Shown here: piece by piece, positions 26,044 through 39,387 of the stretch
How the letters are laid out: every line of letters starts with the position of its first letter
How positions within the stretch are numbered: position 1 is the stretch's first letter
NCBI RefSeq assembly: GCF_009856865.1
Contig: NZ_WVUD01000037.1
Span: 1-39,544, forward strand
Direction of reading: 5' to 3'
Source: Solidesulfovibrio aerotolerans
Lineage (GTDB): Bacteria; Desulfobacterota; Desulfovibrionia; Desulfovibrionales; Desulfovibrionaceae
Length of the DNA: 39,544 nt
Made by a program: the position numbers and the translations under genes
The notes under the pieces: generated by a model
The model's input: only the letters and a program-made list of their open reading frames with translations
Told to the model about the DNA's origin: nothing
Database searches by the model: none

Positions 26044-26072
26044 TTGACGGCGCGACCCGTCGCCGCTATCCC
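26044..26072 (+). promoter_or_regulatory. probable metE promoter
   Basis: TTGACG (26044-26049), a 17-base spacer and TATCCC (26067-26072). Transcription would start near 26079, 20 bases before the first helix of the cobalamin riboswitch, which supports the call. Confidence 0.6.
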
Positions 26073-26098
26073 TGGGCCGTCTGCTTGTTGAGAGGACC

Positions 26099-26250
26099 TT
26101 TCGAGAAACGGAAGACGGTGGGAATCCGTCGCAGTCGCGCTGCTGTATTCGGGGGCAACCGGCCGCCGTCCACTGGGTGATCCCGGGAAGGACGCGGCCA
26201 CGGACCACGGTCATTATGACCAACCCCGTAAGCCAGAAGACGCCTCGAAA
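26099..26250 (+). ncRNA. cobalamin (B12) riboswitch controlling metE
   Basis: Conserved B12-box elements appear in the right order: GACGGTGGGAATCC and CGCAGTCGCGCTGCTGTA (about 26114-26145), CCACTGGGTGATCCCGGGAAGG (26170-26191) and AAGCCAGAAGAC (26230-26241). The closing helix P1 is visible as TTTCGAG (26099-26105) with CTCGAAA (26244-26250). Adenosyl- or other cobalamin binding would favour the terminator at 26338-26372. This shuts off the B12-independent methionine synthase when B12 is available. Confidence 0.9.
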
Positions 26251-26337
26251 ACGGTCGGCATTCGGGCCTCGCGACATGGGCCGGAGTACCAGCGACGGGG
26301 ACCGCTTTGGCGCGTTCCTGCGTGCTGCACACCCGCG

Positions 26338-26446: not shown

Positions 26447-28768
26447 ATGCTTACCCATTCCCTGGGCTTTCCCCGCATGGGGCTGGCCCGCGAACTCAAG
26501 ACCGCGCTGGAAGGTTTTTTCGCCGGAACCGTCACCCCGCACGCCCTCCAAGGCCTCGCCGCGCAACTGCGGCTGCGCCATTGGACCGCCCAGCGCGACG
26601 CCGGCATCGACCTCGTGCCGGTGGGCGATTTCTCTTTCTACGACCACATGCTCGACACCGCCGCCCTCTTTGGCGTCGTGCCCGGGCGCTACAACCATGC
26701 CGGCGGTCCGGTCGAGCTGGACCTGTACTGCCGCATGGCCCGGGGCGGCCAGGACGCCCGGGGCGATGTCACGGCGCTGGAGATGACCAAATGGTTTGAC
26801 ACCAACTACCACTACCTCGTCCCGGAATTTACGCCCGAGCAGACCTTCGCCCTGACCGGCGACGCCATCCTCCAGCAGGCGGCCGAAGCCCGGGCGGCCG
26901 GATTTGCGGCCAAGGCCGTGCTGCCCGGACCAGCCACTTTCCTGATGCTCGGCTCCTGCGCCGGCCAGCCTTTTGACCGGCTGGCCTTGCTCCCCAAGCT
27001 CCTGCCGGCCTACTGCGACCTGCTGGCCCGGCTGGCTGCAACCTGTCCCTGGATCGAACTCGACGAGCCGGTCCTGGGCCAGGATCTGCCGACCGGACTG
27101 CTCCTCCCCTTCCGCCGGGCCTATGCCGCCCTGGCCGAGGCGGCCGGCCCGGCCAGGCTCATGCTGGCCGCGCCCTTTGGCAGCATCGCCCACAATCTGG
27201 CCTTTACCCAGGGCCTGCCCGTGGCGGCCCTGCATGTCGATCTGGTGCGCGACCCCACCCAGCTCGCCCTGGCGGCCAAGGGACTCGCCCCGCAAACCGC
27301 CCTGTCCCTGGGGCTGGTGGACGGCCGCAACATCTGGCGGGTGGATGCCGCCGCCGCCCTGGCCCGCATCGAACTGGCCGCCAGCCATCTCGGCCCCGAC
27401 CGGCTCATGATCGCCCCGTCGTGTTCCCTGCTCCACTGCCCCGTGGACCTCGACGCCGAGACCGGCCTTGACCCGGAAATCCGGTCCTGGATGGCCTTTG
27501 CCGTGCAGAAATGCCGGGAGGTGCGCCTGTTGGCCGATGCCGCCGCCCCGGGTGGTGCCGACCGGCCCGAAGTGGCCGCCGCCCTGGCCGAAAACCGGGC
27601 CGCCTGGGAGTCGCGCCGCAAAAGCCCCCGGCTGGCCAACCCGGCCGTGCGCGGGCGCGTGGCCGACATCTCCGTGGACATGTTCCACCGCCCGGCTCCC
27701 TATGCCGTGCGGGCCGGACAGCAGCGGGCCGCCTTGCACCTCCCCCTGCTGCCGACCACCACCATCGGCTCCTTTCCCCAGACCCCGGAAATCCGGCAAA
27801 CCCGCCGGCGCTTCCGCCAGGGGCAGCTTGACGCGAGCGCCTACGAGGCCTTTCTTAAAACCAGCGTGGCCGACGCCATCGCCCGCCAGGAGGCACTGGG
27901 CCTTGACGTGCTGGTCCACGGCGAACCCGAACGCAATGATATGGTGGAGTTTTTCGGGGAAATGCTCGACGGCTTCTGTTTCACCCGAAACGGCTGGGTG
28001 CAAAGCTATGGCACGCGCTGCGTCAAGCCGCCGGTGATTTACGGCGACGTATCCCGGCCCGGCCCCATGACGGTTGCCATGGCCGTCTACGCCCAGTCGC
28101 TCACGCCAAAGCCGGTCAAGGGCATGCTCACCGGCCCCTCCACCATCCTGGCCTGGAGCTTTGTGCGCGACGACCAGCCCCGGGAAGTGACCCGCCGGCA
28201 GATCGCCCTGGCCCTGCGCGACGAGGTGGCCGACCTCGAAGCCGCCGGCATCCGGGCCATCCAGATCGACGAGCCGGGACTGCGCGAGGGGCTGCCGCTG
28301 CGCCGGCGCGACTGGGAAACCGCCCTGGCCCTGGCCGTGGATGATTTTCGCCTGACCGCCGCCGTGGCCCGGGCAAAAACCCAGATCCACACCCACATGT
28401 GCTACGCCGATTTTGGCGATATCGTCCCGGCCATTGCCGCCATGGACGCCGACGTCATCAGCATCGAGGCCAGCCGCAGCCGCATGGAGCCGCTGGCCGC
28501 CTTTGCCCGGGACGGCTACCCCAACGAGATCGGCCCGGGGCTGTACGACATCCACAGCCCGCGCCTGCCGTCAGTTGCCGAGATGGCCGACCTGCTGCGG
28601 CGGGCTGCCGCCGTCATCGACCCGTCGCGCCTGTGGGCCAACCCGGACTGCGGCCTGAAAACCCGCACCTGGGACGAGGTGACCGCCGCCCTGGCCAATC
28701 TGGTCCAAGCCGCCCGGCGCGTGCGGGCCGAACTGCAAGGCGAAGCCGGGCACCAAAAAACCACTTGA
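26447..28768 (+). CDS. metE: cobalamin-independent methionine synthase MetE
   Basis: Transfers the methyl group of 5-methyltetrahydropteroyltri-glutamate to homocysteine; 773 aa, family-typical. The N-terminal barrel starts LGFPRMGLARELK. The catalytic barrel begins at LPTTTIGSFPQTPEIR. Zinc ligands are seen in HTHMCYADFGDI (His and Cys) and in ANPDCGLKTRTW near the end. Substrate contacts include KGMLTGPSTILAWSF and IQIDEPGLREGL. GGAGG precedes ATG 26447. It is controlled by the upstream B12 riboswitch. No terminator separates it from the aromatic leader 34 bases downstream, so read-through into that attenuator is possible. Confidence 0.96.
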   Translation: MLTHSLGFPRMGLARELKTALEGFFAGTVTPHALQGLAAQLRLRHWTAQRDAGIDLVPVGDFSFYDHMLDTAALFGVVPGRYNHAGGPVELDLYCRMARGGQDARGDVTALEMTKWFDTNYHYLVPEFTPEQTFALTGDAILQQAAEARAAGFAAKAVLPGPATFLMLGSCAGQPFDRLALLPKLLPAYCDLLARLAATCPWIELDEPVLGQDLPTGLLLPFRRAYAALAEAAGPARLMLAAPFGSIAHNLAFTQGLPVAALHVDLVRDPTQLALAAKGLAPQTALSLGLVDGRNIWRVDAAAALARIELAASHLGPDRLMIAPSCSLLHCPVDLDAETGLDPEIRSWMAFAVQKCREVRLLADAAAPGGADRPEVAAALAENRAAWESRRKSPRLANPAVRGRVADISVDMFHRPAPYAVRAGQQRAALHLPLLPTTTIGSFPQTPEIRQTRRRFRQGQLDASAYEAFLKTSVADAIARQEALGLDVLVHGEPERNDMVEFFGEMLDGFCFTRNGWVQSYGTRCVKPPVIYGDVSRPGPMTVAMAVYAQSLTPKPVKGMLTGPSTILAWSFVRDDQPREVTRRQIALALRDEVADLEAAGIRAIQIDEPGLREGLPLRRRDWETALALAVDDFRLTAAVARAKTQIHTHMCYADFGDIVPAIAAMDADVISIEASRSRMEPLAAFARDGYPNEIGPGLYDIHSPRLPSVAEMADLLRRAAAVIDPSRLWANPDCGLKTRTWDEVTAALANLVQAARRVRAELQGEAGHQKTT

Positions 28769-28794
28769 CAGGAGGCGACACCGGAAAGTACCCG
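28765..28794 (+). promoter_or_regulatory. tentative promoter of the aromatic amino acid operon
   Basis: A perfect TTGACA (28765-28770) overlaps the metE stop. Eighteen bases later is TACCCG (28789-28794), a poor -10. If used, the start would be near 28801, so the leader peptide ATG at 28803 would be nearly leaderless. Alternatively the operon is read from the metE promoter. Confidence 0.35.
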
Positions 28795-28802
28795 TATTCC
28801 CC

Positions 28803-28892
28803 ATGCAAACCCTCCGCAATCTGACCTCCGGGTTCTATTTTTGGTTTTGGTTTAGCCACGCCCGTGGTCTGGGGGGGGTGCGGTCGAACTAG
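28803..28892 (+). CDS. 29-aa leader peptide with Phe-Tyr-Phe-Trp-Phe-Trp-Phe run
   Basis: A short frame from ATG 28803 to TAG 28890-28892. Codons 11-17 (28833-28853) encode FYFWFWF: four Phe, one Tyr and two Trp in seven codons, a run very unlikely by chance in DNA of this GC content. It is followed by an attenuator-type terminator at 28915-28949 and then the genes for the whole aromatic pathway. By analogy with trp and phe leaders, ribosome stalling at these codons when any aromatic amino acid is scarce would prevent termination. No strong ribosome binding site is seen at normal distance: AGGAGG is 27 bases upstream and GGAAAG 13. The start may be leaderless or weakly initiated. Confidence 0.85.
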   Translation: MQTLRNLTSGFYFWFWFSHARGLGGVRSN

Positions 28893-28926
28893 TTCAACTG
28901 CAACGAGCCACTCCAGGGCCGCGGGC
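28860..28926 (+). promoter_or_regulatory. antiterminator helix of the aromatic attenuator
   Basis: GCCCGTGGTCTGG (28860-28872, inside the leader ORF just after the aromatic codons) can pair with CCAGGGCCGCGGGC (28913-28926). This makes 13 pairs, two of them G-U, with one bulged G. The second arm is the 5' arm of the terminator, so the two structures exclude each other. A translating ribosome would break this helix; one stalled at the aromatic codons would leave it free. Confidence 0.7.
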
Positions 28927-28949
28927 ATCACGCCGGCGGCCCTTTTTTT
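28915..28949 (+). terminator. attenuator terminator before the aromatic operon
   Basis: AGGGCCGCGGGC / GCCGGCGGCCCT, a 12-base stem with one mismatch and a five-base loop, is followed by seven T. It lies 22 bases past the leader stop codon and 54 before the first structural gene. Confidence 0.9.
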
Positions 28950-29003
28950 ATTCCCATGTCGCCGGCGTCCGCAGCCGGGAGGGCCAAACCACAGGAGATG
29001 ACC

Positions 29004-29801
29004 ATGCTGCTTGGAAAAGCCGTCCGCCTCGAACGCATTTTCAATCGCAACACCCACCGCGCCATCATCGTCCCCATGGACCACGGCGTCACGGTCGGCC
29101 CCATCTCTGGCCTCATTGACATGCGCGACGCCGTCAACCAGGTGGCCGAGGGCGGAGCCAATGCCGTGCTCATGCACAAAGGCCTGCCCCGCTGCTCCCA
29201 TCGCGGACGGGGACGCGACGTCGGCCTTATCATTCATCTTTCCGCCTCCACCAGCCTCTCGCCCTACCCCAACGCCAAGACGCTGGTCGGCACCGTCGAA
29301 GACGCCATCAAGCTCGGGGCCGACGCCGTGTCCCTGCACATCAACCTGGGTGATGAGACCGAGCGCGACATGCTGGCCCATCTGGGAGAAACCACCTCCC
29401 GCGCCGCCGACTGGGGCATGCCGGTCCTGGCCATGGTCTATGCCCGCGGTCCCAAGGTCAAAAACGAATACGATGTCGAAGTGGTGGCCCATTGCGCCCG
29501 GGTCGGCGTCGAACTCGGGGCTGATGTGGTCAAGGTGCCCTACACCGGCGACATCGAAACCTTTTCCCGGGTCACCGAGGCTTGCTGCATCCCGGTGGTC
29601 ATTGCCGGCGGCGCCAAAATGGACAACGACCGCGATCTGCTGCAAATGGCCCACGACTCGGTCCAGGCCGGCGGCTCGGGCCTGTCCATTGGCCGCAACA
29701 TCTTCCAGCACGCCCAGCCGGCCCGCATGGTCCAGGCCCTGCACGGCATCGTCCACCTCGATTGGGAAGTGGATCAGGCCCTCGAACTCTTGAAGGATTA
29801 G
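29004..29801 (+). CDS. aroA': 2-amino-3,7-dideoxy-D-threo-hept-6-ulosonate (ADH) synthase, archaeal-type
   Basis: A class I aldolase, 265 aa, related to archaeal MJ0400. It makes ADH from aspartate semialdehyde and a sugar-phosphate-derived donor, replacing DAHP synthase as entry to the shikimate pathway. Visible family segments are [25 protein letters not shown] and VVKVPYTGD, which holds the likely Schiff-base Lys, then PVVIAGGAK and [14 protein letters not shown] 29004 was chosen over 28998 because AGGAG abuts the latter and is correctly spaced from the former. It is the first gene after the attenuator and is followed three bases later by dehydroquinate synthase II, the enzyme that uses its product. 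Confidence 0.92.
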
Positions 29802-29804
29802 GTC

Positions 29805-30779
29805 ATGACCAAGGAAATATGGCTCAAGGTCGTTCCCTTTGACAAAGATATCGTCACCCTTGGCCTCGAATCCGGCGTGGACGGGTTCGTGGCCGAGGCC
29901 GCCGATGCCGACCGGATTCTGGCTCTGGGGCGCACCAAAGTGATGACGCCCGAAGAGTTTGAACTGGTCCCCATTTGCTGCAAGGACGACGAGGGAACGG
30001 CCATCGAAGCGCTCAATGCCTGCCGGCCGGTCTTTTTGGCCAAGGGTTGGGAGATCATTCCCGTCGAAAATATCCTGGCCTGCACCCAGGGCCTGGGCCT
30101 TGAATGCGAAAGCCTGGATCGGGCGCGCCTGGCCGCCGGGGTGCTGGAGCGCGGCGCTGACAAGCTGCTCATTACCCCCGAAGCCGTGTGCGACCTCAAA
30201 ACCATCGTCAACGAACTCAAACTCTCCCAGGGCAAAATGGACCTCGTCCCGGCCACCATCACCAAAATCGAACACGCGGGCCTGGGCCATCGGGTCTGCG
30301 TAGATACGACCAGCATCCTTAAGACCGGCGAAGGGATGCTCGTCGGCAACTCCTCGGCCTTCACCTTTTTGGTCAACGCCGAGACCGAGTCCAATCCCTA
30401 TGTCGCGGCCCGGCCCTTTCGCATCAACGCCGGCGCGGTCCACGCCTACTGCCAGATGCCCGGGGACAAGACCCGCTACCTCGAAGAACTGAACGCGGGA
30501 TCGGAAGTGCTCATCGTCTCGCACCAGGGTGCCACCAAGACCGCTGTGGTCGGGCGGGTTAAAACCGAAATCCGGCCCATGCTGCTCATCACCGCCGAGG
30601 TCGAGGGCAAGGAAGGCAAGGTGTTTCTCCAAAACGCCGAAACCATCCGGGTGGTCACCCCCGAGGGCAAACCCATAAGCGTCGTCACCCTGGCCGTTGG
30701 CGACACGGTGCTCGTGCGCACCGACGTGGCCGGTCGCCATTTCGGCATGCGCATCGCCGAAGACATCAAGGAAGGCTGA
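29805..30779 (+). CDS. aroB': 3-dehydroquinate synthase II, archaeal-type
   Basis: Oxidatively deaminates and cyclises ADH to 3-dehydroquinate, as archaeal MJ1249 does; it is unrelated to classical AroB. The 324 aa protein has the family's ITPEAVCDLKTIVNEL, the GLGHRVCVDTTSIL segment, MLVGNSSAFTFLVNAE and PFRINAGAVHAY. No DAHP synthase or classical aroB is present in this window. The gene follows ADH synthase by three bases and precedes pheA by one, so it is translationally coupled on both sides. Confidence 0.93.
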   Translation: MTKEIWLKVVPFDKDIVTLGLESGVDGFVAEAADADRILALGRTKVMTPEEFELVPICCKDDEGTAIEALNACRPVFLAKGWEIIPVENILACTQGLGLECESLDRARLAAGVLERGADKLLITPEAVCDLKTIVNELKLSQGKMDLVPATITKIEHAGLGHRVCVDTTSILKTGEGMLVGNSSAFTFLVNAETESNPYVAARPFRINAGAVHAYCQMPGDKTRYLEELNAGSEVLIVSHQGATKTAVVGRVKTEIRPMLLITAEVEGKEGKVFLQNAETIRVVTPEGKPISVVTLAVGDTVLVRTDVAGRHFGMRIAEDIKEG

Positions 30780-30780
30780 C

Positions 30781-31935
30781 ATGCACAATGACAGCCCCGA
30801 AAAGACCGCCGCCCCGGGTTCCCTGGAAGAAGCCCTGCTGGAAATCCGCCACGGCATCGACGCCGTGGACAATGAAATACTCACCCTGCTGAGCAAACGC
30901 GCTGCCCTCAGCCTTGAGGTCGGGCGGCGCAAAGACGGCCGCGACAGCGCCATCTTTAAACCCTTTCGCGAACAGGAAGTCCTGGCCCGGCTGGCCGCAG
31001 CCAACCCCGGCCCCCTGCCCGCCGCGCATTTGCTCAGCATCTACCGGGAAATTCTCTCCTCCTCCCGTCGGCTCCAGCGCCCCGAGCGGGTGGCTTATCT
31101 CGGTCCCGAAGGCACATTCTCCAACTTCGCCGCCATGGCCGCCCTGGGCCATTCCCCGGATTTCCTGTCCCAGACCACCATCGGCGACGTGTTCGCCGCC
31201 GTGGCCGGCAAACAGGCCGATCTTGGCGTGGTGCCGCTGGAAAACTCCCTGCAAGGCACCATCGGCCAGAGCCTGGACAACTTCCAGCGCTACAACGTGT
31301 TTATCCAGGCCGAAATCACCTGCCGGGTGAGCCACGCCCTGCTCTCCACCGCCACCAGCCTGGAAGCCATAGACACCGTCTATTCGCACCCCCAGCCCCT
31401 GGCCCAGTGCGCCGCATGGCTCAAGGCCCATCTGCCCAAGGCCAAGGTCATCCCGACCGATTCCACGGCTGCCGCCGCCGCGCGGCTGGCCAACGAACCA
31501 ACCGCCGCATCCATCGGCCATCTGCGTCTGGCTCCCATGCACAATCTCAACGTCCTGGCCAGCCCCATCGAAGACATGCCGGACAACTGGACGCGGTTTT
31601 TCATCATCGGCCCCGAAGACACCAAGCAGCAGACGCGCGATAAAACCTCCATCCTTTTTACCGTGCCCAACAAGCCCGGCGCGCTCTATCACGTGCTCTC
31701 CCATCTGGCCGGCGAAGGCATCAACCTGACCAAGCTCGAATCGCGGCCCATCCGGGGCGAAAAATGGCAGTACGTGTTTTTCGCCGATCTGCAATGCGAC
31801 CTGACCCGCGAGGAATACAAAAAACTGCTGGCGACGTTGACCGAAAACACCCACAGTCTGCGTATCCTCGGCTGCTACCCGGCCGGTCCCCAGGTGGACC
31901 TGGCCGACGGCGCGGCCGAGAAGATGGAAGAGTAG
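30781..31935 (+). CDS. pheA: chorismate mutase / prephenate dehydratase (P-protein)
   Basis: This bifunctional enzyme leads to phenylalanine; 384 aa. An AroQ-type chorismate mutase occupies about 15-100 (IRHGIDAVDNEILTLLSKRA). The dehydratase (about 105-285) has YLGPEGTFSNFAA, VPLENSLQGTIG, CRVSHALL and TDSTAAAA. A C-terminal ACT domain (about 290-370) has NKPGALYHVL and the Phe-binding ESRP, so allosteric feedback by phenylalanine is expected. ATG 30781 follows AAGGAAGG. The last codons run into a polypurine stretch, and a 257-base gap of repeats separates it from aroA. Confidence 0.95.
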   Translation: MHNDSPEKTAAPGSLEEALLEIRHGIDAVDNEILTLLSKRAALSLEVGRRKDGRDSAIFKPFREQEVLARLAAANPGPLPAAHLLSIYREILSSSRRLQRPERVAYLGPEGTFSNFAAMAALGHSPDFLSQTTIGDVFAAVAGKQADLGVVPLENSLQGTIGQSLDNFQRYNVFIQAEITCRVSHALLSTATSLEAIDTVYSHPQPLAQCAAWLKAHLPKAKVIPTDSTAAAAARLANEPTAASIGHLRLAPMHNLNVLASPIEDMPDNWTRFFIIGPEDTKQQTRDKTSILFTVPNKPGALYHVLSHLAGEGINLTKLESRPIRGEKWQYVFFADLQCDLTREEYKKLLATLTENTHSLRILGCYPAGPQVDLADGAAEKMEE

Positions 31936-32192: not shown

Positions 32193-33530
32193 ATGCCGAC
32201 TATCACCGCGCCGCCGTCCAAATCTGTGTCCCACCGGGCCGTCATCGCCGCTGCCCTGGCCGCCGGCACCAGCCGCGTCACCGGCCTGCTCGACAGCCAG
32301 GACATCCACCGCACCCGGGACTGTCTGGTCGCCATGGGCGCGGACATCCATCCCCAGAGCGACGGCTCCATCATCGTCTCCGGCACGGCCGGCCATCCCC
32401 AGGGCGGCGATCCCGAGACTGACGACGCCGTTATTTTGGATGTCGGCGAATCCGGCACCACCTGCCGGCTGCTGACCGCCGTGGCCGCTGCCGGCAAGGG
32501 ACTGTTTGAACTGCGCGGGCATGGCCGCATGCACGACAGGCCCATCGGCGAGCTCATAAACGCCCTGCTCCCCCAGGGCCTGGAAGCCCTCTACCTCGCC
32601 AAATCCGGCTGCCCGCCCATGATGCTCGTGGGCCGGGGGCTGCATGGCGGCACCACCAGCATCAGCCTCGAGGACAGCTCCCAATACCTTTCCGGTCTGC
32701 TCTTGGCCGCGCCCCTGGCCGCCGCACCGCTGACCATCGAAATTTCCGGGCACAAGACCGTGTCCTGGCCCTATGTCGCCATCACCCTCTCGACACTGGC
32801 CGATTTTTCCGTGCCCTTTGCCGTGGAGACCCGGACCAACGGCGGCTGGGCCGCCACGGACTGGCGCACCCTCACTGATGTGGTGCCGGGCCAGATCCGC
32901 TTTGCCATGCAGCCGGCCCGCTATATGCCGCGCACCTACGCCGTGGAAGCCGACTGGTCGAGCGCCTCCTATTTTCTGGCCGCCGGGGCGGTCGGCCCGG
33001 CACCGGTCACCATCGTCGGGCTGCGCCAGGATTCCCTGCAAGGCGACCGGGCCATCCGCGACATCCTGGCCCAAATGGGCGCGCGCATCGAAGCCACCGA
33101 CGAGACCATTACCGTCCATCCCAGCGACCTGACCGGCCAGGAACTGGACATGGGCCGCTGCCCGGACCTCGTGCCCACGGTGGCGGCCGTGGCCTGCTTT
33201 GCCGCAGGCGAGACCGTCATCCGCAACGTGGCCCATCTGCGCCTCAAGGAATCGGACCGCATCGAGGCCGTGGCCGAAAACTGCACCCGGGCCGGGGCCG
33301 TCATCACCACCCGGGCCGACGGGCTGCGCATCCAGCCGCGCCCGCTGCGCACCGATGAGCGCGTGGAATTTTCCGCCTTCGACGACCACCGGCTGGCCAT
33401 GTCCGCCGCCATCTTCGAACTGGCCGGCATCGAGGTGGTCCTTGATAACCCGGGCTGCGTGGCCAAATCGTTCCCGACCTTCTGGGAAAAATGGGAAACG
33501 ATCCGCGAAGCGCTCCACGAAGCGGAGTAA
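32193..33530 (+). CDS. aroA: 3-phosphoshikimate 1-carboxyvinyltransferase (EPSP synthase)
   Basis: Joins shikimate 3-phosphate and PEP; 445 aa. Signatures are the N-terminal APPSKSVSHRA, VGESGTTCRLL, EADWSSASYFLAAGA, LRLKESDRIEA and DDHRLAMSAA. The N-terminus is short, starting almost at the first phosphate-binding loop. The loop that is usually GNSGTT or GNAGT reads GESGTT. GAGG precedes ATG 32193. Palindromic repeats lie both upstream and directly after the stop codon. It belongs to the aromatic operon by orientation and order. Confidence 0.95.
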   Translation: MPTITAPPSKSVSHRAVIAAALAAGTSRVTGLLDSQDIHRTRDCLVAMGADIHPQSDGSIIVSGTAGHPQGGDPETDDAVILDVGESGTTCRLLTAVAAAGKGLFELRGHGRMHDRPIGELINALLPQGLEALYLAKSGCPPMMLVGRGLHGGTTSISLEDSSQYLSGLLLAAPLAAAPLTIEISGHKTVSWPYVAITLSTLADFSVPFAVETRTNGGWAATDWRTLTDVVPGQIRFAMQPARYMPRTYAVEADWSSASYFLAAGAVGPAPVTIVGLRQDSLQGDRAIRDILAQMGARIEATDETITVHPSDLTGQELDMGRCPDLVPTVAAVACFAAGETVIRNVAHLRLKESDRIEAVAENCTRAGAVITTRADGLRIQPRPLRTDERVEFSAFDDHRLAMSAAIFELAGIEVVLDNPGCVAKSFPTFWEKWETIREALHEAE

Positions 33531-33655: not shown

Positions 33656-34582
33656 ATGGCTGATACGCACAAACAAGGAACACCGCCCGCCCCCCAGAAA
33701 AAAGTTTTTGGGGAAGGTGGGGGGCTGGGGAAGGAAACCCCGGGCCAAGCGGCCCGCAGCAAAGGGGAAACCCTGCCTTCGGGCGCTCCAGCCGGTGTTC
33801 CGGCCGCTATCAACACCATTGCCATGGTTGGGGCCAAGGGCGGGATGGGACGATTGTTCGCTGCCAGGAGCCGGGCGGTTGGCATTGAGGTCCGCGAGTT
33901 GGGGCGGCCGTTGACCCCGGCCGACATCCAGGCGGCAGTGACCGGGGCCGAGTTGGTGCTGGTGTCTGTGCCGGTCTACGCCACGGCCGAGGTGACGGGC
34001 CTTCTTGCCCCGCATCTGGCCGCGCCGCAGATTCTGGCCGATGTGGGGTCGGTGAAAACGCTGCCTATCGCCGCCATGGTCGAGGGCTACCCCGGGCCGG
34101 TGGTCGGCACGCATCCGCTGTTTGGTCCCGAGCCGGCGGCGGATGACGGGTTGCGGGTGGCGGTCATGGACGGCCGGCCTGGCGTTGCCGGCTGGGCCAC
34201 CGAGCTGGTCGCCGCGTGGTGTCGGCGGGTGGGCTTTGCGCCTTTTGCCTCCACGGCCGAGGAGCATGACCGGGCGGCGGCCTATGTGCAGGGCCTTAAT
34301 TTCGTCACAACCGTGGCTTATCTGGCTTCCCAGACAGCCGACGACGCCGTGGCCAAGTATCTGACCCCATCGTTTGCGCGCCGGCTTACTGCGGCGGAAA
34401 AGCTCATCACCAAGGATGCGGCCCTTTTCACCGCCCTTTTCGAGGCCAATCCGTACAGCCATGAAGTGGTGCGTAATTACCGGAATTTCCTGAATATCGC
34501 CGCCGGAGGCGACATTGATCTGCTGGTACGCCGGGCCGAGGCCTGGTGGTCGGCCAAGACGGAAAAAAAGGACAACCCATGA
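33656..34582 (+). CDS. tyrA: prephenate dehydrogenase with repeat-derived N-terminal extension
   Basis: The NAD(P)-dependent step towards tyrosine; 308 aa. The Rossmann start is INTIAMVGAKGGMG (about residues 51-64). Downstream are LVSVPVYATAEV, LADVGSVKTLP and VVGTHPLFGP, then a helical C-terminal domain with FVTTVAYLASQ. The first about 50 residues are Gly/Lys/Pro-rich (QKKVFGEGGGLGKETPG) and are encoded by a copy of the dispersed repeat seen at 691-766. An ATG at 33824 would remove the first beta strand of the Rossmann fold, and no ATG, GTG or TTG lies between. The long start at 33656 (AGGA 13 bases upstream) is therefore the best supported. The stop overlaps trpE by ATGA. Confidence 0.88.
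   Translation: MADTHKQGTPPAPQKKVFGEGGGLGKETPGQAARSKGETLPSGAPAGVPAAINTIAMVGAKGGMGRLFAARSRAVGIEVRELGRPLTPADIQAAVTGAELVLVSVPVYATAEVTGLLAPHLAAPQILADVGSVKTLPIAAMVEGYPGPVVGTHPLFGPEPAADDGLRVAVMDGRPGVAGWATELVAAWCRRVGFAPFASTAEEHDRAAAYVQGLNFVTTVAYLASQTADDAVAKYLTPSFARRLTAAEKLITKDAALFTALFEANPYSHEVVRNYRNFLNIAAGGDIDLLVRRAEAWWSAKTEKKDNP
33693..33740. repeat. dispersed repeat copy inside the tyrA 5' coding region
   Basis: CAGAAAAAAGTTTTTGGGG followed by AAGGTGGGGGG and GGGAAGGAAACC closely matches 691-740 and 39493-39525. Unlike the copy at 691-766, the second arm of the palindrome is diverged here, and the tyrA frame stays open through it. Confidence 0.75.
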
Positions 34583-35997
34583 GTGCGATAACGCTTCGCC
34601 AGGAAGGGACGTGGCTGCCGGCCGACGTCCAGACGCCCATCAGCCTGTTTCTGGGGCTGGTCGGCGAGCGGCCCGGCATTTTGCTCGAAAGTGCCGAAGT
34701 GGACGGTCGTCTTGGCCGCTACAGCCTCATTGCCTGGGATTTCCGACTGCGGCTTCGCCTCAAGGACGGCAAGCTCGACGTCAGCGCCCGCGACCCCAGA
34801 CTGACGCCGCTGGAGGCCTACAACGGCCAGGGCTTTATCGAAGGCATGCGCGGCATTCTGGCCGATATGAAGATCTTATCCCCAGAGGGCTTTGCTGACG
34901 TGCCGCCGATTACCCGCTCGCTGGTCGGCTATTTCGGCTACGGCGTGGCCGGCATCTTCGAGCCGAAACTGGCTAAAGTCTTGCCGCCCAATGAAGCCGA
35001 ATTCTGTCTGGTGCTGCCCGGCCGGGTGGTCCTTTTCGACCACGTCAAACACCGCTGCCTGCATCTGTCGCTGGACGAGGGCAAAAAGGCCAAGATCGAA
35101 TACGCCAACATCTTTGCGCCCATGGATCGCCCGGTCATCGGCAAGGTGGTCAACACCCCGGACGCGGCCGGCTATATGGAAGCGGTCGCCAAGTGCAAGG
35201 AGATGATCCGGGCCGGCGAGTGCATCCAGACGGTGCTGTCCACCCAGTTTACCGCGCCCTTTTCCGGCGACGCGTTTGTGGTCTACCGCCGGTTGCGCCA
35301 GGTAAACCCCTCGCCGTACATGTTTTTTATGCGCCTGCCGCGGGTTACGCTGCTGGGTTCATCGCCTGAGCTGCTCATCCGCTGCCGCGATGGCGAACTG
35401 ACCACCTGCCCCATTGCCGGCACGCGCCATCGCAGCGCTGATCCGGTGGAGGACGACCGGCTGGCCGAGGAACTGCTCGCCGATCCCAAGGAGCGGGCCG
35501 AGCATGTCATGCTTGTGGATCTTGGCCGCAACGACCTGGGCCGCATGGCCGAGCCGGGCACGGTCAATGTCGAAAAGTTCATGGCTGTCGAGCGCTTTTC
35601 CCATGTCATGCACATCGTTTCCTATGTCACGGCCAAGCTGAAAAAGGGCCTCGACGCCCTGGACGTGCTCAAATGCGCCTTCCCGGCCGGCACGCTTTCG
35701 GGCGCGCCCAAGGTCCGGGCCATGGAGATGATTGCCGAGCTGGAGCACAGCCTGCCGCGCGGGCCGTATGCCGGCTGCATCGGCTGGATCGGCCTGGACG
35801 AGGGGCATGTGAACCTGGACACGGGCATTACCATCCGCAGCATGTGGATACGCGACGGCATGCTGACCTGGCAGGCCGGGGCCGGCATCGTTTTCGATTC
35901 CGATCCGGCCAAGGAATGGGTGGAGTGTCAAAACAAGGCCCGGGTCATTGCCGAGGTGCTGGCTGCCAAGGAGGAAGGCGATGTTTTTACTTATTGA
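34579..35997 (+). CDS. trpE: anthranilate synthase component I
   Basis: Converts chorismate to anthranilate using ammonia from TrpG; 472 aa. The N-terminal LLESAEVDGRLGRYSLI carries the Trp-binding LLES motif, so feedback inhibition by tryptophan is expected. The catalytic half has NPSPYMFFMRLP, LLGSSPELLI, VMLVDLGRNDLG, FSHVMHIVS, FPAGTLSGAPKVRAMEMI and the usual C-terminus. The segment usually AGTRPRG or AGTRRRG reads AGTRHRS. AAGGAC precedes ATG 34579. It overlaps tyrA by 4 bases and trpG by 17. Confidence 0.96.
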   Translation: MSAITLRQEGTWLPADVQTPISLFLGLVGERPGILLESAEVDGRLGRYSLIAWDFRLRLRLKDGKLDVSARDPRLTPLEAYNGQGFIEGMRGILADMKILSPEGFADVPPITRSLVGYFGYGVAGIFEPKLAKVLPPNEAEFCLVLPGRVVLFDHVKHRCLHLSLDEGKKAKIEYANIFAPMDRPVIGKVVNTPDAAGYMEAVAKCKEMIRAGECIQTVLSTQFTAPFSGDAFVVYRRLRQVNPSPYMFFMRLPRVTLLGSSPELLIRCRDGELTTCPIAGTRHRSADPVEDDRLAEELLADPKERAEHVMLVDLGRNDLGRMAEPGTVNVEKFMAVERFSHVMHIVSYVTAKLKKGLDALDVLKCAFPAGTLSGAPKVRAMEMIAELEHSLPRGPYAGCIGWIGLDEGHVNLDTGITIRSMWIRDGMLTWQAGAGIVFDSDPAKEWVECQNKARVIAEVLAAKEEGDVFTY

Positions 35998-36553
35998 TAA
36001 CTTCGACTCGTTCACCTTCAACGTCGTCCAGGCCTTCCAGCAGTTGGGGAACGATCCTGTTGTTTTGAAAAACGACGATCCCGAAATCCTGAAGCTGGCC
36101 GCGTCTGGCACGCTGGAAAAGGTCTGCATCTCGCCCGGCCCGAGCAACCCGGTCAATGCCGGGCTATGCCTCCAATTTTTGGAGCTTTTGCCCGTGACCA
36201 CGCCGGTTTTCGGCGTCTGCCTGGGGCATCAGATTTTGGGGCATTTCGCTGGCGCGCCCGTCGTCGTGGCTGATCGCATCATGCACGGCAAGACGTCTGA
36301 AGTGTATCACCGCGAAATGGGCCTTTTCGAGGGCCTGCCCAACCCCATGGAGTGCTGCCGCTACCATTCGCTGATCGTGCAGGCCGCCAAAGCGCCTGAG
36401 CTGCTGGAAATAACGGCCTGGACCGAGCAAAACGAAGTCATGGGCATGCGCTATCGCGACCGCCCGTGGGTGGGTGTGCAGTTTCACCCGGAGTCGGTCT
36501 TCACGCCCGACGGCATGAAGCTGATTGGGAATTTTCCGGCTAAGATTTTATAG
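35981..36553 (+). CDS. trpG: anthranilate synthase component II (glutamine amidotransferase)
   Basis: The glutaminase subunit of anthranilate synthase, 190 aa, stand-alone. The class I amidotransferase triad is complete: nucleophile Cys in GVCLGHQILG, and His/Glu in VQFHPESVFTPDG. The start LLIDNFDSFTFNVVQAF is typical. GGAGG precedes ATG 35981, inside the end of trpE. Unlike in many bacteria, it is not fused to trpD. A HEPN-like gene follows 11 bases later. Confidence 0.96.
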   Translation: MFLLIDNFDSFTFNVVQAFQQLGNDPVVLKNDDPEILKLAASGTLEKVCISPGPSNPVNAGLCLQFLELLPVTTPVFGVCLGHQILGHFAGAPVVVADRIMHGKTSEVYHREMGLFEGLPNPMECCRYHSLIVQAAKAPELLEITAWTEQNEVMGMRYRDRPWVGVQFHPESVFTPDGMKLIGNFPAKIL

Positions 36554-36981: not shown

Positions 36982-37992
36982 GTGGAAAAACACGTCGAAT
37001 GCCTCGAACTGCTCGCCATCGGCAAAGACCTGCCCAAAGACCTGGCCGACTACGCCTTTCGGGCCATGTACAACGGCGAAATGCCCGCCTCGTGCGTGGG
37101 CGCATTTCTCATGGGCCTGAAAACCAAGGGCGAGGCAGCCGTGGAAATCGCGGCCGGCGTCACCACCGCCCTGGAACAGGCCCGGCTCGTCTCCGGCCTC
37201 ACCGGCCCGCGCATCGACACCTGCGGCACCGGCGGGGATAACACCTGCTCCTTTAACTGCTCCACCGCCGTGGCGCTCTACCTCGCCGCCATGGGCCACA
37301 AGGTCGTCAAGCACGGCAACCGCGCCGTTTCCAGCGCCTGCGGCAGCGCCGACGCCGTGGAATCCCTCGGCTTTGCGCTCGTCGTCGAACCCGACGCCGT
37401 GGCCGCCGAACTGGACAAGCACAATTTCGTTTTTCTCTTCGCCCCCAACTACCACCCGGCCTTTAAGCGCATCGGACCCATCCGCAAGGAACTCGGCGCA
37501 CGCACGCTGTTTAACCTCATGGGACCGCTCCTCAATCCCGCCCGCCCCACGCATCAGATCCTTGGCGTGCCCACCGCCCGCCACGTCCCGCTGATGGCCG
37601 AAGTGCTGGCGCTGACCGGCCTGTCCTGCGGCGCGGTCGTCCACGGCGCAGGCGGCTTTGACGAACTGACCCCGTTCGGACCGGCCGATGTGTGTTGGGT
37701 CAAAGACGGCTGGCTCAAAAAGGAACGCATCGACCCGACCAGCCTTGGCGTTGCCGAAGGCAAACTTGCCGATGTGGTGGTTTCGGGCCGCGACGAGGCC
37801 GTGGCAGTCCTTAAGGGCGTGCTGGCCGGCCAAGGCACCCAAGCCATGCTGGACATGGTGGCGCTCAACCTCGGTTGCGCCCTGCATCTGCTGGAAGGCG
37901 ACCTGACTCTTAAACAAGGCGTGGCCAAGGCCCGCGACGCCATCGGGCAGGGCGCTGCCGCCGCGTTTTTCAAGGACGTGTTCCATGCTTGA
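36982..37992 (+). CDS. trpD: anthranilate phosphoribosyltransferase
   Basis: Transfers phosphoribose from PRPP to anthranilate; 336 aa. The PRPP and anthranilate sites are clear: DTCGTGGDNTCSFNCSTAVA, KHGNRAVSSACGSADAVE and LFNLMGPLLNPARP. The GTG start at 36982 follows AAAGGAG at ideal spacing. It overlaps trpC by 8 bases. Confidence 0.96.
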   Translation: MEKHVECLELLAIGKDLPKDLADYAFRAMYNGEMPASCVGAFLMGLKTKGEAAVEIAAGVTTALEQARLVSGLTGPRIDTCGTGGDNTCSFNCSTAVALYLAAMGHKVVKHGNRAVSSACGSADAVESLGFALVVEPDAVAAELDKHNFVFLFAPNYHPAFKRIGPIRKELGARTLFNLMGPLLNPARPTHQILGVPTARHVPLMAEVLALTGLSCGAVVHGAGGFDELTPFGPADVCWVKDGWLKKERIDPTSLGVAEGKLADVVVSGRDEAVAVLKGVLAGQGTQAMLDMVALNLGCALHLLEGDLTLKQGVAKARDAIGQGAAAAFFKDVFHA

Positions 37993-38767
37993 GAAGTTTC
38001 GGGCCGCCAAGGCGGCCGAGATTCGCCGGCTGGTGGGCCTTGAGGCCGAGCAACGCCTGCCCGCGCCGTATACCGGCAAGCGGCCGTCCTTTTCCGATGC
38101 GCTCATTGCCAAGGCCCCCATGGCCGTTATCGCCGAATACAAGCGGGCCTCGCCGTCCATGGGCGACATCAACCTGGGCCTGTCCCCGGCCGATGTCGCA
38201 ACCCTCTACGCCGCCTCGGGAGCCGCCGCCATTTCGGTGTTGACCGAAGAGACGTATTTCAAAGGTTCGCTGGACTATCTGGAAACGATCAGCGGCTGCG
38301 GCCTGCCGCTGCTACGCAAAGACTTCCTGCTCCATCCGCTGCAGGTGATCGAAACCGCCGCCACCAGGGCCTCGGCCCTGCTGCTGATCGTGCGCATGCT
38401 CACCGACTCGGAACTGGGCGACATGCTGCGCCTGACCTACGACGCGGGCCTGGAAGCCGTGGTCGAAGTCTTTGACGCCGTGGACCTGGAGCGGGCCGAA
38501 GCAGCCGGGGCGCACATCATCCAGGTCAACAACCGCGACCTCGATACCTTAAAAACTGATTTCGCCGTGGCCCGGACCCTGGCTCCGAAAAAACGGCCCG
38601 GCCGCCTCTGGATCGCCGCCAGCGGCATAAAGACCCGCTCCGACGTGCTCGCCATGGCCGAGCTGGGCTTCGACGCCGTGCTGGTCGGCACCTCGATCAT
38701 GTCCGAACCCGATCCCGGCGCGGCCCTGGCCGCCCTGGCCGGCCATACGGAAAAGGCCGCGTCATGA
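37985..38767 (+). CDS. trpC: indole-3-glycerol phosphate synthase with altered ESG motif
   Basis: Closes the indole ring; a 260 aa TIM barrel. Conserved active-site segments are IAEYKRASPSMGD (Glu and Lys), LLRKDFLL (catalytic Lys), EAVVEVFD (Glu) and QVNNRDLDT (Asn). The late motif that is normally ESGI reads AASGI, so the usual substrate-binding Glu is Ala. Everything else is family-typical. ATG 37985 lies within the trpD end, and the stop overlaps trpF (ATGA). Confidence 0.93.
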   Translation: MLEKFRAAKAAEIRRLVGLEAEQRLPAPYTGKRPSFSDALIAKAPMAVIAEYKRASPSMGDINLGLSPADVATLYAASGAAAISVLTEETYFKGSLDYLETISGCGLPLLRKDFLLHPLQVIETAATRASALLLIVRMLTDSELGDMLRLTYDAGLEAVVEVFDAVDLERAEAAGAHIIQVNNRDLDTLKTDFAVARTLAPKKRPGRLWIAASGIKTRSDVLAMAELGFDAVLVGTSIMSEPDPGAALAALAGHTEKAAS

Positions 38768-39387
38768 GCGCCCGGCTCGTCAAAGTCTGCGGTATGACCC
38801 GGGCCGAAGACGTCATAGGCTGCACCGAGGCCGGGGCCGATTGGCTGGGCTTTATCTTCGCCGCCAAAAGCCCGCGCCGCGTCACCCCCGCCCAGGCCGC
38901 CGCCCTGCCCCGGACCTCGGCCAAACGCGTGGGTGTGTTTGTCGAACAAACCCTGGCCGAGGTGCTCGCCATCATGGCCGAAGCCGACCTCGATCTGGCC
39001 CAACTCCACGGCAACCAGGACGCGGACTTCTGCCGGGCCGTGGGGCCGCAGCGGGTCATACGGGCCTTTTGGCCCCAAAAGCACCCGGATCTCGGGAGCC
39101 TTGCCGCCGAAATCGCCCCCTTTGCCGGCGCAGTGCGCTTTGCCCTGCTCGACGCCGGCACCGCTGGCGGCGGCCACGGCCAATCCCTTGATTTCGCAAC
39201 ACTGGCCGCACTTTCCCCGCCCATGCCCTGGCTCTTGGCCGGAGGCCTGGGACCAGACAATCTGGCCGAGGCCGTGCGCCTCGCCGCGCCCCACGGCGTG
39301 GACCTCAATTCCGGCGTGGAATCCTCGCCGGGCCTCAAAGACCTCGCCAAAGTCCGGAGGTCTCTTTGGGCCGTGAGGGGTAAATAA
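38764..39387 (+). CDS. trpF: phosphoribosylanthranilate isomerase
   Basis: The Amadori rearrangement between TrpD and TrpC; 207 aa. VKVCGMTRAEDV carries the catalytic Cys. GADWLGFIFAAKSPR, LDLAQLHGNQ, the general acid Asp in FALLDAGTAGGGHG, LLAGGLGPDNL and the C-terminal GVDLNSGVES follow in order. It is coupled to trpC by ATGA. trpB and trpA, which often follow, are not within the remaining 157 bases. Confidence 0.95.
   Translation: MSARLVKVCGMTRAEDVIGCTEAGADWLGFIFAAKSPRRVTPAQAAALPRTSAKRVGVFVEQTLAEVLAIMAEADLDLAQLHGNQDADFCRAVGPQRVIRAFWPQKHPDLGSLAAEIAPFAGAVRFALLDAGTAGGGHGQSLDFATLAALSPPMPWLLAGGLGPDNLAEAVRLAAPHGVDLNSGVESSPGLKDLAKVRRSLWAVRGK

Follow-up and report, generated by a model that had tools for sequence, protein, structure and literature searches.

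Probable control of an aromatic amino acid operon by a phenylalanine-, tyrosine-, and tryptophan-rich leader in Solidesulfovibrio aerotolerans

The leader locus and its conservation

Can a single short leader peptide couple an entire aromatic amino acid operon to the supply of phenylalanine, tyrosine, and tryptophan at once? The question is raised by a 39,544-nucleotide stretch of Solidesulfovibrio aerotolerans DNA (NCBI RefSeq assembly GCF_009856865.1, contig NZ_WVUD01000037.1, positions 1 to 39,544, forward strand), hereafter the window. A preliminary description of this DNA had proposed a 29-codon frame with FYFWFWF at codons 11 to 17, a terminator behind it, and genes for shikimate entry and for the Phe, Tyr, and Trp branches farther downstream. 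Translation of positions 28803 to 28892 bore out the frame and its aromatic cluster, a T-tailed hairpin was found at 28915 to 28949, and a profile check of the genes agreed with the proposed functions. The gene order behind the leader is ADHS-DHQSII-pheA-aroA-tyrA-trpEGDCF, and the features of the locus are as follows.

28765..28770, plus strand: predicted -35 element TTGACA, overlapping the metE stop codon (28766-28768); position conserved across leaders
28789..28794, plus strand: predicted weak -10 element TACCCG, spacer of 18 nt, assigned by geometry; transcription start predicted at about 28801-28803
28803..28892, plus strand: leader peptide ORF of 29 codons, translating to MQTLRNLTSGFYFWFWFSHARGLGGVRSN followed by a stop codon
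28833..28853, plus strand: regulatory codons 11-17, Phe-Tyr-Phe-Trp-Phe-Trp-Phe (TTC TAT TTT TGG TTT TGG TTT)
28860..28869, plus strand: strand 2, the 5' strand of the antiterminator core, within the leader ORF; pairs with 28917-28926
28915..28949, plus strand: intrinsic terminator (strands 3:4), hairpin AGGGCCGC..GCGGCCCT with a T7 tail; 12-pair helix
28917..28926, plus strand: strand 3, the 3' strand of the antiterminator core, in the terminator 5' arm
29004..29801, plus strand: ADH synthase (2-amino-3,7-dideoxy-D-threo-hept-6-ulosonate synthase, ADHS; TIGR01949), the first controlled gene
29805..30779, plus strand: 3-dehydroquinate synthase II (DHQ synthase II), by profile
30826..31935, plus strand: chorismate mutase/prephenate dehydratase (pheA), by profile; start codon provisional
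32202..33530, plus strand: aroA (EPSP synthase), by profile; start codon provisional
33806..34582, plus strand: tyrA-like prephenate dehydrogenase, by profile; start codon provisional
34624..35997, plus strand: trpE, by profile; start codon provisional
35981..36553, plus strand: trpG, by profile
36982..37992, plus strand: trpD, by profile
37985..38767, plus strand: trpC, by profile
38764..39387, plus strand: trpF

A simple consensus scan of positions 28300 to 29400 returned neither the terminator nor the promoter, and both were later recognized by comparison; the hairpin had been missed because the scan rule disallowed its inner mismatch. The gene upstream of the leader is metE, which ends at 28768, 34 bases ahead of the leader ORF. 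It is itself preceded by a cobalamin riboswitch (RF00174, 71.4 bits, window positions 26069-26261). The predicted -35 element lies across the metE stop codon. Transcripts running on from metE into the leader may occur, and they could feed the attenuator at the abutting aromatic leader.

The nearest named relatives by ADHS were Desulfovibrio sp. DV and Solidesulfovibrio magneticus Maddingley, both at 97%. A class-level search for ADHS covered 159 genomes, of which 156 had a match. Among the matches listed, 99 ADHS loci were chosen by hand; the set covers many genera and both paralogues and is not a random sample. In 89 of the 99 loci, a short ATG-started ORF with at least six Phe, Tyr, or Trp residues in eight codons was present no more than 450 bp upstream of ADHS. 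No comparable ORF was recovered from 1980 dinucleotide shuffles; one turned up in 1960 random 450-mers drawn from the same loci, and one in the 99 reverse complements. The check suggested in the preliminary description, a search of relatives for a short ORF rich in F/Y/W at the corresponding position, was positive in 24 genera whose operon includes trpE. Within a genus the rows are near-copies, and the ADHS tree described below serves as a check on kinship. Of 66 named loci with at least 2 kb of upstream sequence, only 2 have metE upstream, and among the 53 of them with a leader the count is also 2, which indicates that the leader belongs to the aromatic genes.

The leaders differ from the genes that they precede in codon choice. 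Phe was encoded by TTT in 328 of 444 cases (74%) in leaders versus 78 of 385 in ADHS genes (TTC, 80%), and Tyr by TAT in 151 of 226 cases (67%) versus 87 of 343 (TAC, 75%). Weak structure and decoding are candidate causes of this preference. The ends of the leader peptides differ from genus to genus.

Codon content and the genes controlled

To which amino acids would such a leader respond? We compared the aromatic residues of each cluster with the genes of its operon, reading operon class from up to 14 kb downstream (two loci, L120 and L181, are cut by contig ends). In operons that include trpE, Phe, Tyr, and Trp were all present in the cluster in every leader (61/61, 24 genera). Where trpE lies outside the ADHS operon, Trp was present in the cluster of the ADHS leader in 25 of 30 genomes and missing in 5; in one of the 30 (G116), trpE adjoins ADHS but is encoded on the opposite strand. 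In genomes that lack a clear trpE, none of three leaders had Trp in the cluster (trpE was absent from G072 and G056, and G103 has a weak 33% match). No leader was recognized in G154, a fourth genome without a clear trpE. The locus L220, from a genome where no trpE was found, has no recognized leader and is not counted among the three.

Stand-alone ADHS paralogues showed a different composition. None of their 24 leaders carried Trp in the cluster. These leaders were Phe-rich, with Phe as the only aromatic residue in 11 of the 24, apart from the Tyr-rich L214, which has one Trp outside the cluster. Both kinds of leader, that of the trpE operon and that of the stand-alone gene, co-occurred in 20 genomes and so form within-genome pairs. 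Eight of 32 stand-alone paralogues had no recognizable leader (L163, L172, L176, L187, L188, L190, L201, and L207). Fourteen named loci have ADHS followed by pheA, with no match to DHQ synthase II; judged by eye, 11 of them show a Phe/Tyr run with no Trp inside it, and in 4 of these 11 a Trp stands directly behind the run.

Detached trpE genes had leaders of their own. A leader with at least two Trp in four codons was found no more than 500 bp upstream in 27 of 30 cases, and 18 had at least three Trp, compared to 93 (at least two) and 3 (at least three) of 1200 shuffles. Detached trpEGD operons (L246-L273), mostly from one Desulfovibrio-type genus, have tandem Trp codons of the GWWWR type in their leaders. 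When leader labels were placed on the ADHS tree, 10 changes were needed in all: 8 for FYW (7 forced by well-supported branches), 5 for F, and 1 for Tyr. With such repeated switches, leader composition follows gene context and not descent alone.

It is nevertheless conceivable that the attenuator in practice senses mainly Phe, with the codons for Tyr and Trp as passengers. Among the residues of the trpE-operon leaders, Phe is the most frequent (means of 4.28 Phe, 3.02 Tyr, and 1.59 Trp), the leaders of stand-alone paralogues are Phe-rich, and most leaders of split operons hold a single Trp. Passenger codons, however, sit poorly with the presence of Trp in all 61 trpE-operon leaders across 24 genera and its absence from the cluster in all 3 leaders without a clear trpE and all 24 stand-alone leaders. 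They are also at odds with the folding model described below, in which stalling at one or more Trp codons favors the antiterminator in 32 of 34 trpE-operon leaders, and stalling at one or more Tyr codons does so in 32 of 34. We consider a mainly Phe-sensing attenuator unlikely.

Promoter, RNA helices, and the predicted switch

A promoter-like element precedes most leaders at a similar distance. Of 91 leaders, 82 have TTGACA with at most one mismatch (75 of them exact) starting 32 to 42 nt before the leader ATG, compared to 5.3% of permuted sequences, a control made by plain permutation and not by dinucleotide shuffling, and to 1 of 91 at the ADHS start. In 80 of the 82, TA follows TTGACA at a spacer of 17 or 18, and in 69 of these 80 the distance from the T of TA to the A of ATG is 12 to 14 nt. 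The base preceding the leader ATG is a pyrimidine in 81 of 82. This geometry places the start of transcription at or next to the leader AUG and suggests that the leader ORF is probably leaderless. Nine leaders lack a close TTGACA, and four of the nine have an exact TTGACA at -51 to -64. Pairing with the anti-Shine-Dalgarno sequence was weaker at leaders (median of -4.7) than at ADHS (-8.8). Because it was alike in leaders with a close promoter (-4.65) and in the nine without (-5.1), it does not decide the matter of a leaderless start.

In the trpL-trpE(G) system of Sinorhizobium meliloti, an alphaproteobacterium, the 5' end of the transcript is likewise the ATG of the leader ORF, and only Trp is sensed, according to the available text of PMC7298713. 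There, the peptide peTrpL and the short RNA rnTrpL act in trans, and the leader peptide or terminated RNA studied here could also do so, given that the start is probably leaderless and that the terminated RNA would be about 147 nt long, which compares with S. meliloti in the same text. Variation of the peptide ends between genera argues against such a role, and an additional action in trans seems quite improbable.

Downstream of the aromatic cluster, the 3' part of the leader can pair with the 5' arm of the terminator. The duplex overlapped the terminator arm in all 85 scored loci and was better than at least 95 of 100 shuffles in 81 of them. These 85 come from the 99 loci after removal of 7 without a leader and 7 without a terminator by the T-run rule, whose hairpins end in TTCGTC, TTCTTG, and similar sequences; by subtraction, the 85 include L163, which is without a convincing leader, and L208 was scored on the wrong hairpin. 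The duplex of the Tyr-rich leader L214 was unconvincing (z of -0.6).

Covariation was assessed in an alignment (A1) of 52 rows, taken from 54 leaders hand-picked among the 91, with L167 and L180 excluded and several ends adjusted by hand. In the antiterminator core, 97.3% of cells were paired, with two-sided changes at 5 of 10 pairs; in the terminator helix, 94.2% were paired, with two-sided changes at 9 of 12 pairs. Sliding either helix by one to three columns reduced pairing to 30 to 62%, and both helices covary when judged against shuffles and slides. Column 100 is particularly informative. In each of the 52 rows its partner in the antiterminator is column 20 (UA 23, CG 16, UG 11, AU 2), yet in 33 of these rows it forms no pair in the terminator helix, which argues that the antiterminator is under selection of its own. 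The unconstrained RNAalifold consensus of A1 contained the terminator together with a small hairpin local to strand 2, and the antiterminator was absent from it. In 44 of 91 leaders, a 1:2 (protector) duplex was better than 95 of 100 shuffles. The leader in the window is not among them, since 14 of its 100 shuffles were equally good; a 1:2-type stem is present in its minimum-energy fold. A strong protector hairpin is not general among these leaders.

A terminator and an antiterminator by themselves would suit a T-box, a riboswitch, or a protein-bound leader as well as control by a translating ribosome. Yet the aromatic codons themselves track gene content, and no Rfam family reached its gathering score in the leader region, where the seven matches at E up to 10 were all far below it; the sole gathering-score match in the window is the cobalamin riboswitch ahead of metE. 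The T-box and riboswitch readings were rejected on the Rfam result, and we regard this group of alternatives as very improbable. Finally, that the hairpin is an ordinary metE terminator and the ORF a chance reading frame is hardly credible and was rejected: metE does end just 34 bases from the ORF, but it is seldom found upstream of other leaders, none of the 1980 shuffles yielded such an ORF, the antiterminator covaries, and the leader has a promoter-like element of its own.

How would the position of a ribosome set the choice between the two helices? We modeled transcripts cut before strand 4, with a ribosome masking the RNA, and calculated the probability of the antiterminator over 52 leaders. 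The mean was 0.81 with the ribosome in the cluster (48/52 above 0.5) and 0.11 with the ribosome on the last six codons. It was 0.82 with no ribosome (45/52 above 0.5) and 0.57 with the ribosome at the stop codon (33/52 above 0.5). For the leader in the window, the probability was 0.92 at codons 11 to 15, 0.56 at W16, 0.44 at F17, and about zero at codons 19 to 26; it was high again from codon 28 to the stop codon, where it reached 0.91. In 31 of 34 trpE-operon leaders, each of Phe, Tyr, and Trp has a codon at which a stalled ribosome leaves the antiterminator probability above 0.5 (exceptions, L123, L136, and L211), so that stalling at any one of these amino acids would be expected to open the operon. 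Since the antiterminator is also favored without a ribosome and with one at the stop codon, termination would depend on a well-timed ribosome over strand 2. A model that folds the full-length leader to equilibrium, with part of it masked by a ribosome, was rejected: it gave the terminator at every ribosome position and did not separate stalled from unstalled leaders. The switch must accordingly be kinetic, with timing deciding the outcome.

The locus combines an ORF rich in codons for the end products, an intrinsic terminator, and an antiterminator that shares a strand with the terminator. Judged from sequence comparison, we think it very likely that it is a ribosome-mediated transcription attenuator of the trp/his/ilv type, multivalent for Phe, Tyr, and Trp. 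Transcription would start at or next to the leader AUG, as the promoter geometry suggests, and a ribosome would begin on the leaderless 5' AUG. When charged tRNA-Phe, tRNA-Tyr, and tRNA-Trp are all plentiful, the ribosome would clear the cluster and cover strand 2, leaving strand 3 to strand 4, and the terminator would end transcription. When any one of the charged tRNAs is short, the ribosome would stall in the cluster, and the free strand 2 would pair with strand 3 before strand 4 is made. RNA polymerase would then continue into the genes of the shared pathway and of the three branches. The mixed Phe/Tyr/Trp reading put forward in the preliminary description is thus supported by the leaders of relatives, by the covarying helices, and by codon content that tracks the genes controlled. 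Not part of that description were the antiterminator, a promoter whose position makes a leaderless start probable, and a Tyr-run sister leader on another contig.

A series of leaders and its known counterparts

The sister leader precedes the second ADHS of the same genome (L002, also L113; contig C87, about 40179-41160, minus strand), which is 65% identical to the first. It reads FGPYYYYYGF and has its own terminator, and a Tyr-run leader was present before the second ADHS in 13 of 13 such Solidesulfovibrio loci. Upstream of L002 on the same strand is an EPSP-synthase-family gene (Pfam PF00275), with one ORF lacking a Pfam match in between. An RNA model of the leader (R1) found just two strong sites in its own genome, those of the two ADHS leaders (E values of 1e-20 and 5e-10; the next, 0.0036). 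Across 247 genomes of the phylum, R1 matched 34 with an E value of 1e-4 or lower, and nine of the 34 belong to the same class as S. aerotolerans. ADHS leaders found by R1 outside the class include the Tyr-rich SYYFCYYY (L307) and YFFFYFFKYF (L296). Matches also occurred before genes of other pathways, such as those for an iron alcohol dehydrogenase (L303) and a metallo-beta-lactamase-fold protein (L309), and some of these are probably chance terminators. The matches L303, L309, and L310 have aromatic-rich short frames and may be chance or new members.

Taken together, these leaders suggest that one RNA scaffold, probably with a leaderless peptide, likely serves as a tunable sensor across the class and parts of the phylum. 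Ahead of the complete aromatic operon, the scaffold would carry codons for Phe, Tyr, and Trp; in genomes that have no clear trpE, it would carry those for Phe and Tyr without Trp. Isoenzyme copies of the first enzyme would be preceded by Phe- or Tyr-rich runs, and detached trp operons by Trp repeats. Sensed amino acids would be rewritten by codon replacement as operons split and duplicate, giving isoenzyme control by attenuation. In enteric bacteria, isoenzyme control runs through TyrR and TrpR; attenuation would suggest a way for bacteria with the ADH-synthase entry route to regulate their first-step isoenzymes. If so, the leader in the window would act as a natural switch with three inputs, in which a single short ORF increases expression of the common pathway and of every branch upon shortage of any aromatic amino acid. 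The series of leaders (Phe, Tyr, Phe+Tyr, Phe+Tyr+Trp, and Trp) makes the idea of an easily rewired sensor testable by codon replacement.

The trp, pheA, and pheST attenuators of Escherichia coli each sense one amino acid, are Shine-Dalgarno led, and have a strong protector hairpin. The leader described here resembles them in its short ORF with end-product codons and in its mutually exclusive antiterminator and terminator. Unlike them, it would address all three aromatic amino acids, is probably leaderless, and has strand 2 inside the ORF. In contrast to the textbook trp leader, our model predicts read-through when the ribosome is absent. Multivalent attenuators are known from ilvGMEDA, ilvBN, and thrABC, which likewise use several amino acids per leader, but those are branched-chain or Thr/Ile and not aromatic. 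With S. meliloti trpL, the present leader shares the probable leaderless start and differs in that trpL senses Trp only (available text of PMC7298713).

The preliminary description had allowed for an earlier published prediction, and one exists in part. In 2005, a putative attenuator taken from a prediction website was listed before aroA'>aroB'>aroQ-pheA>aroF>tyrA>[trp operon] of D. vulgaris, the same operon in a relative (PMC1173090, Table 7). The attenuator therefore has a precedent. The text of PMC1173090 does not contain the term "leader peptide", and the passages available give neither codons nor sensed amino acids. Among the papers listed by full-text literature searches, none described a mixed Phe/Tyr/Trp leader or a leader peptide before this operon, and older comparative work might predict one. 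Also related are the actinobacterial trp attenuators, whose GC-rich terminators, triple pairing motif, and Trp codon repeats, as given in the available text of PMC1262725, are shared by the present series; that text covers Trp, Cys, and branched-chain genes and concludes that operons for Phe or Tyr are not preceded by conserved RNA structures. On comparative grounds, the mixed aromatic leader appears to be a variant of known ribosome-mediated attenuation.
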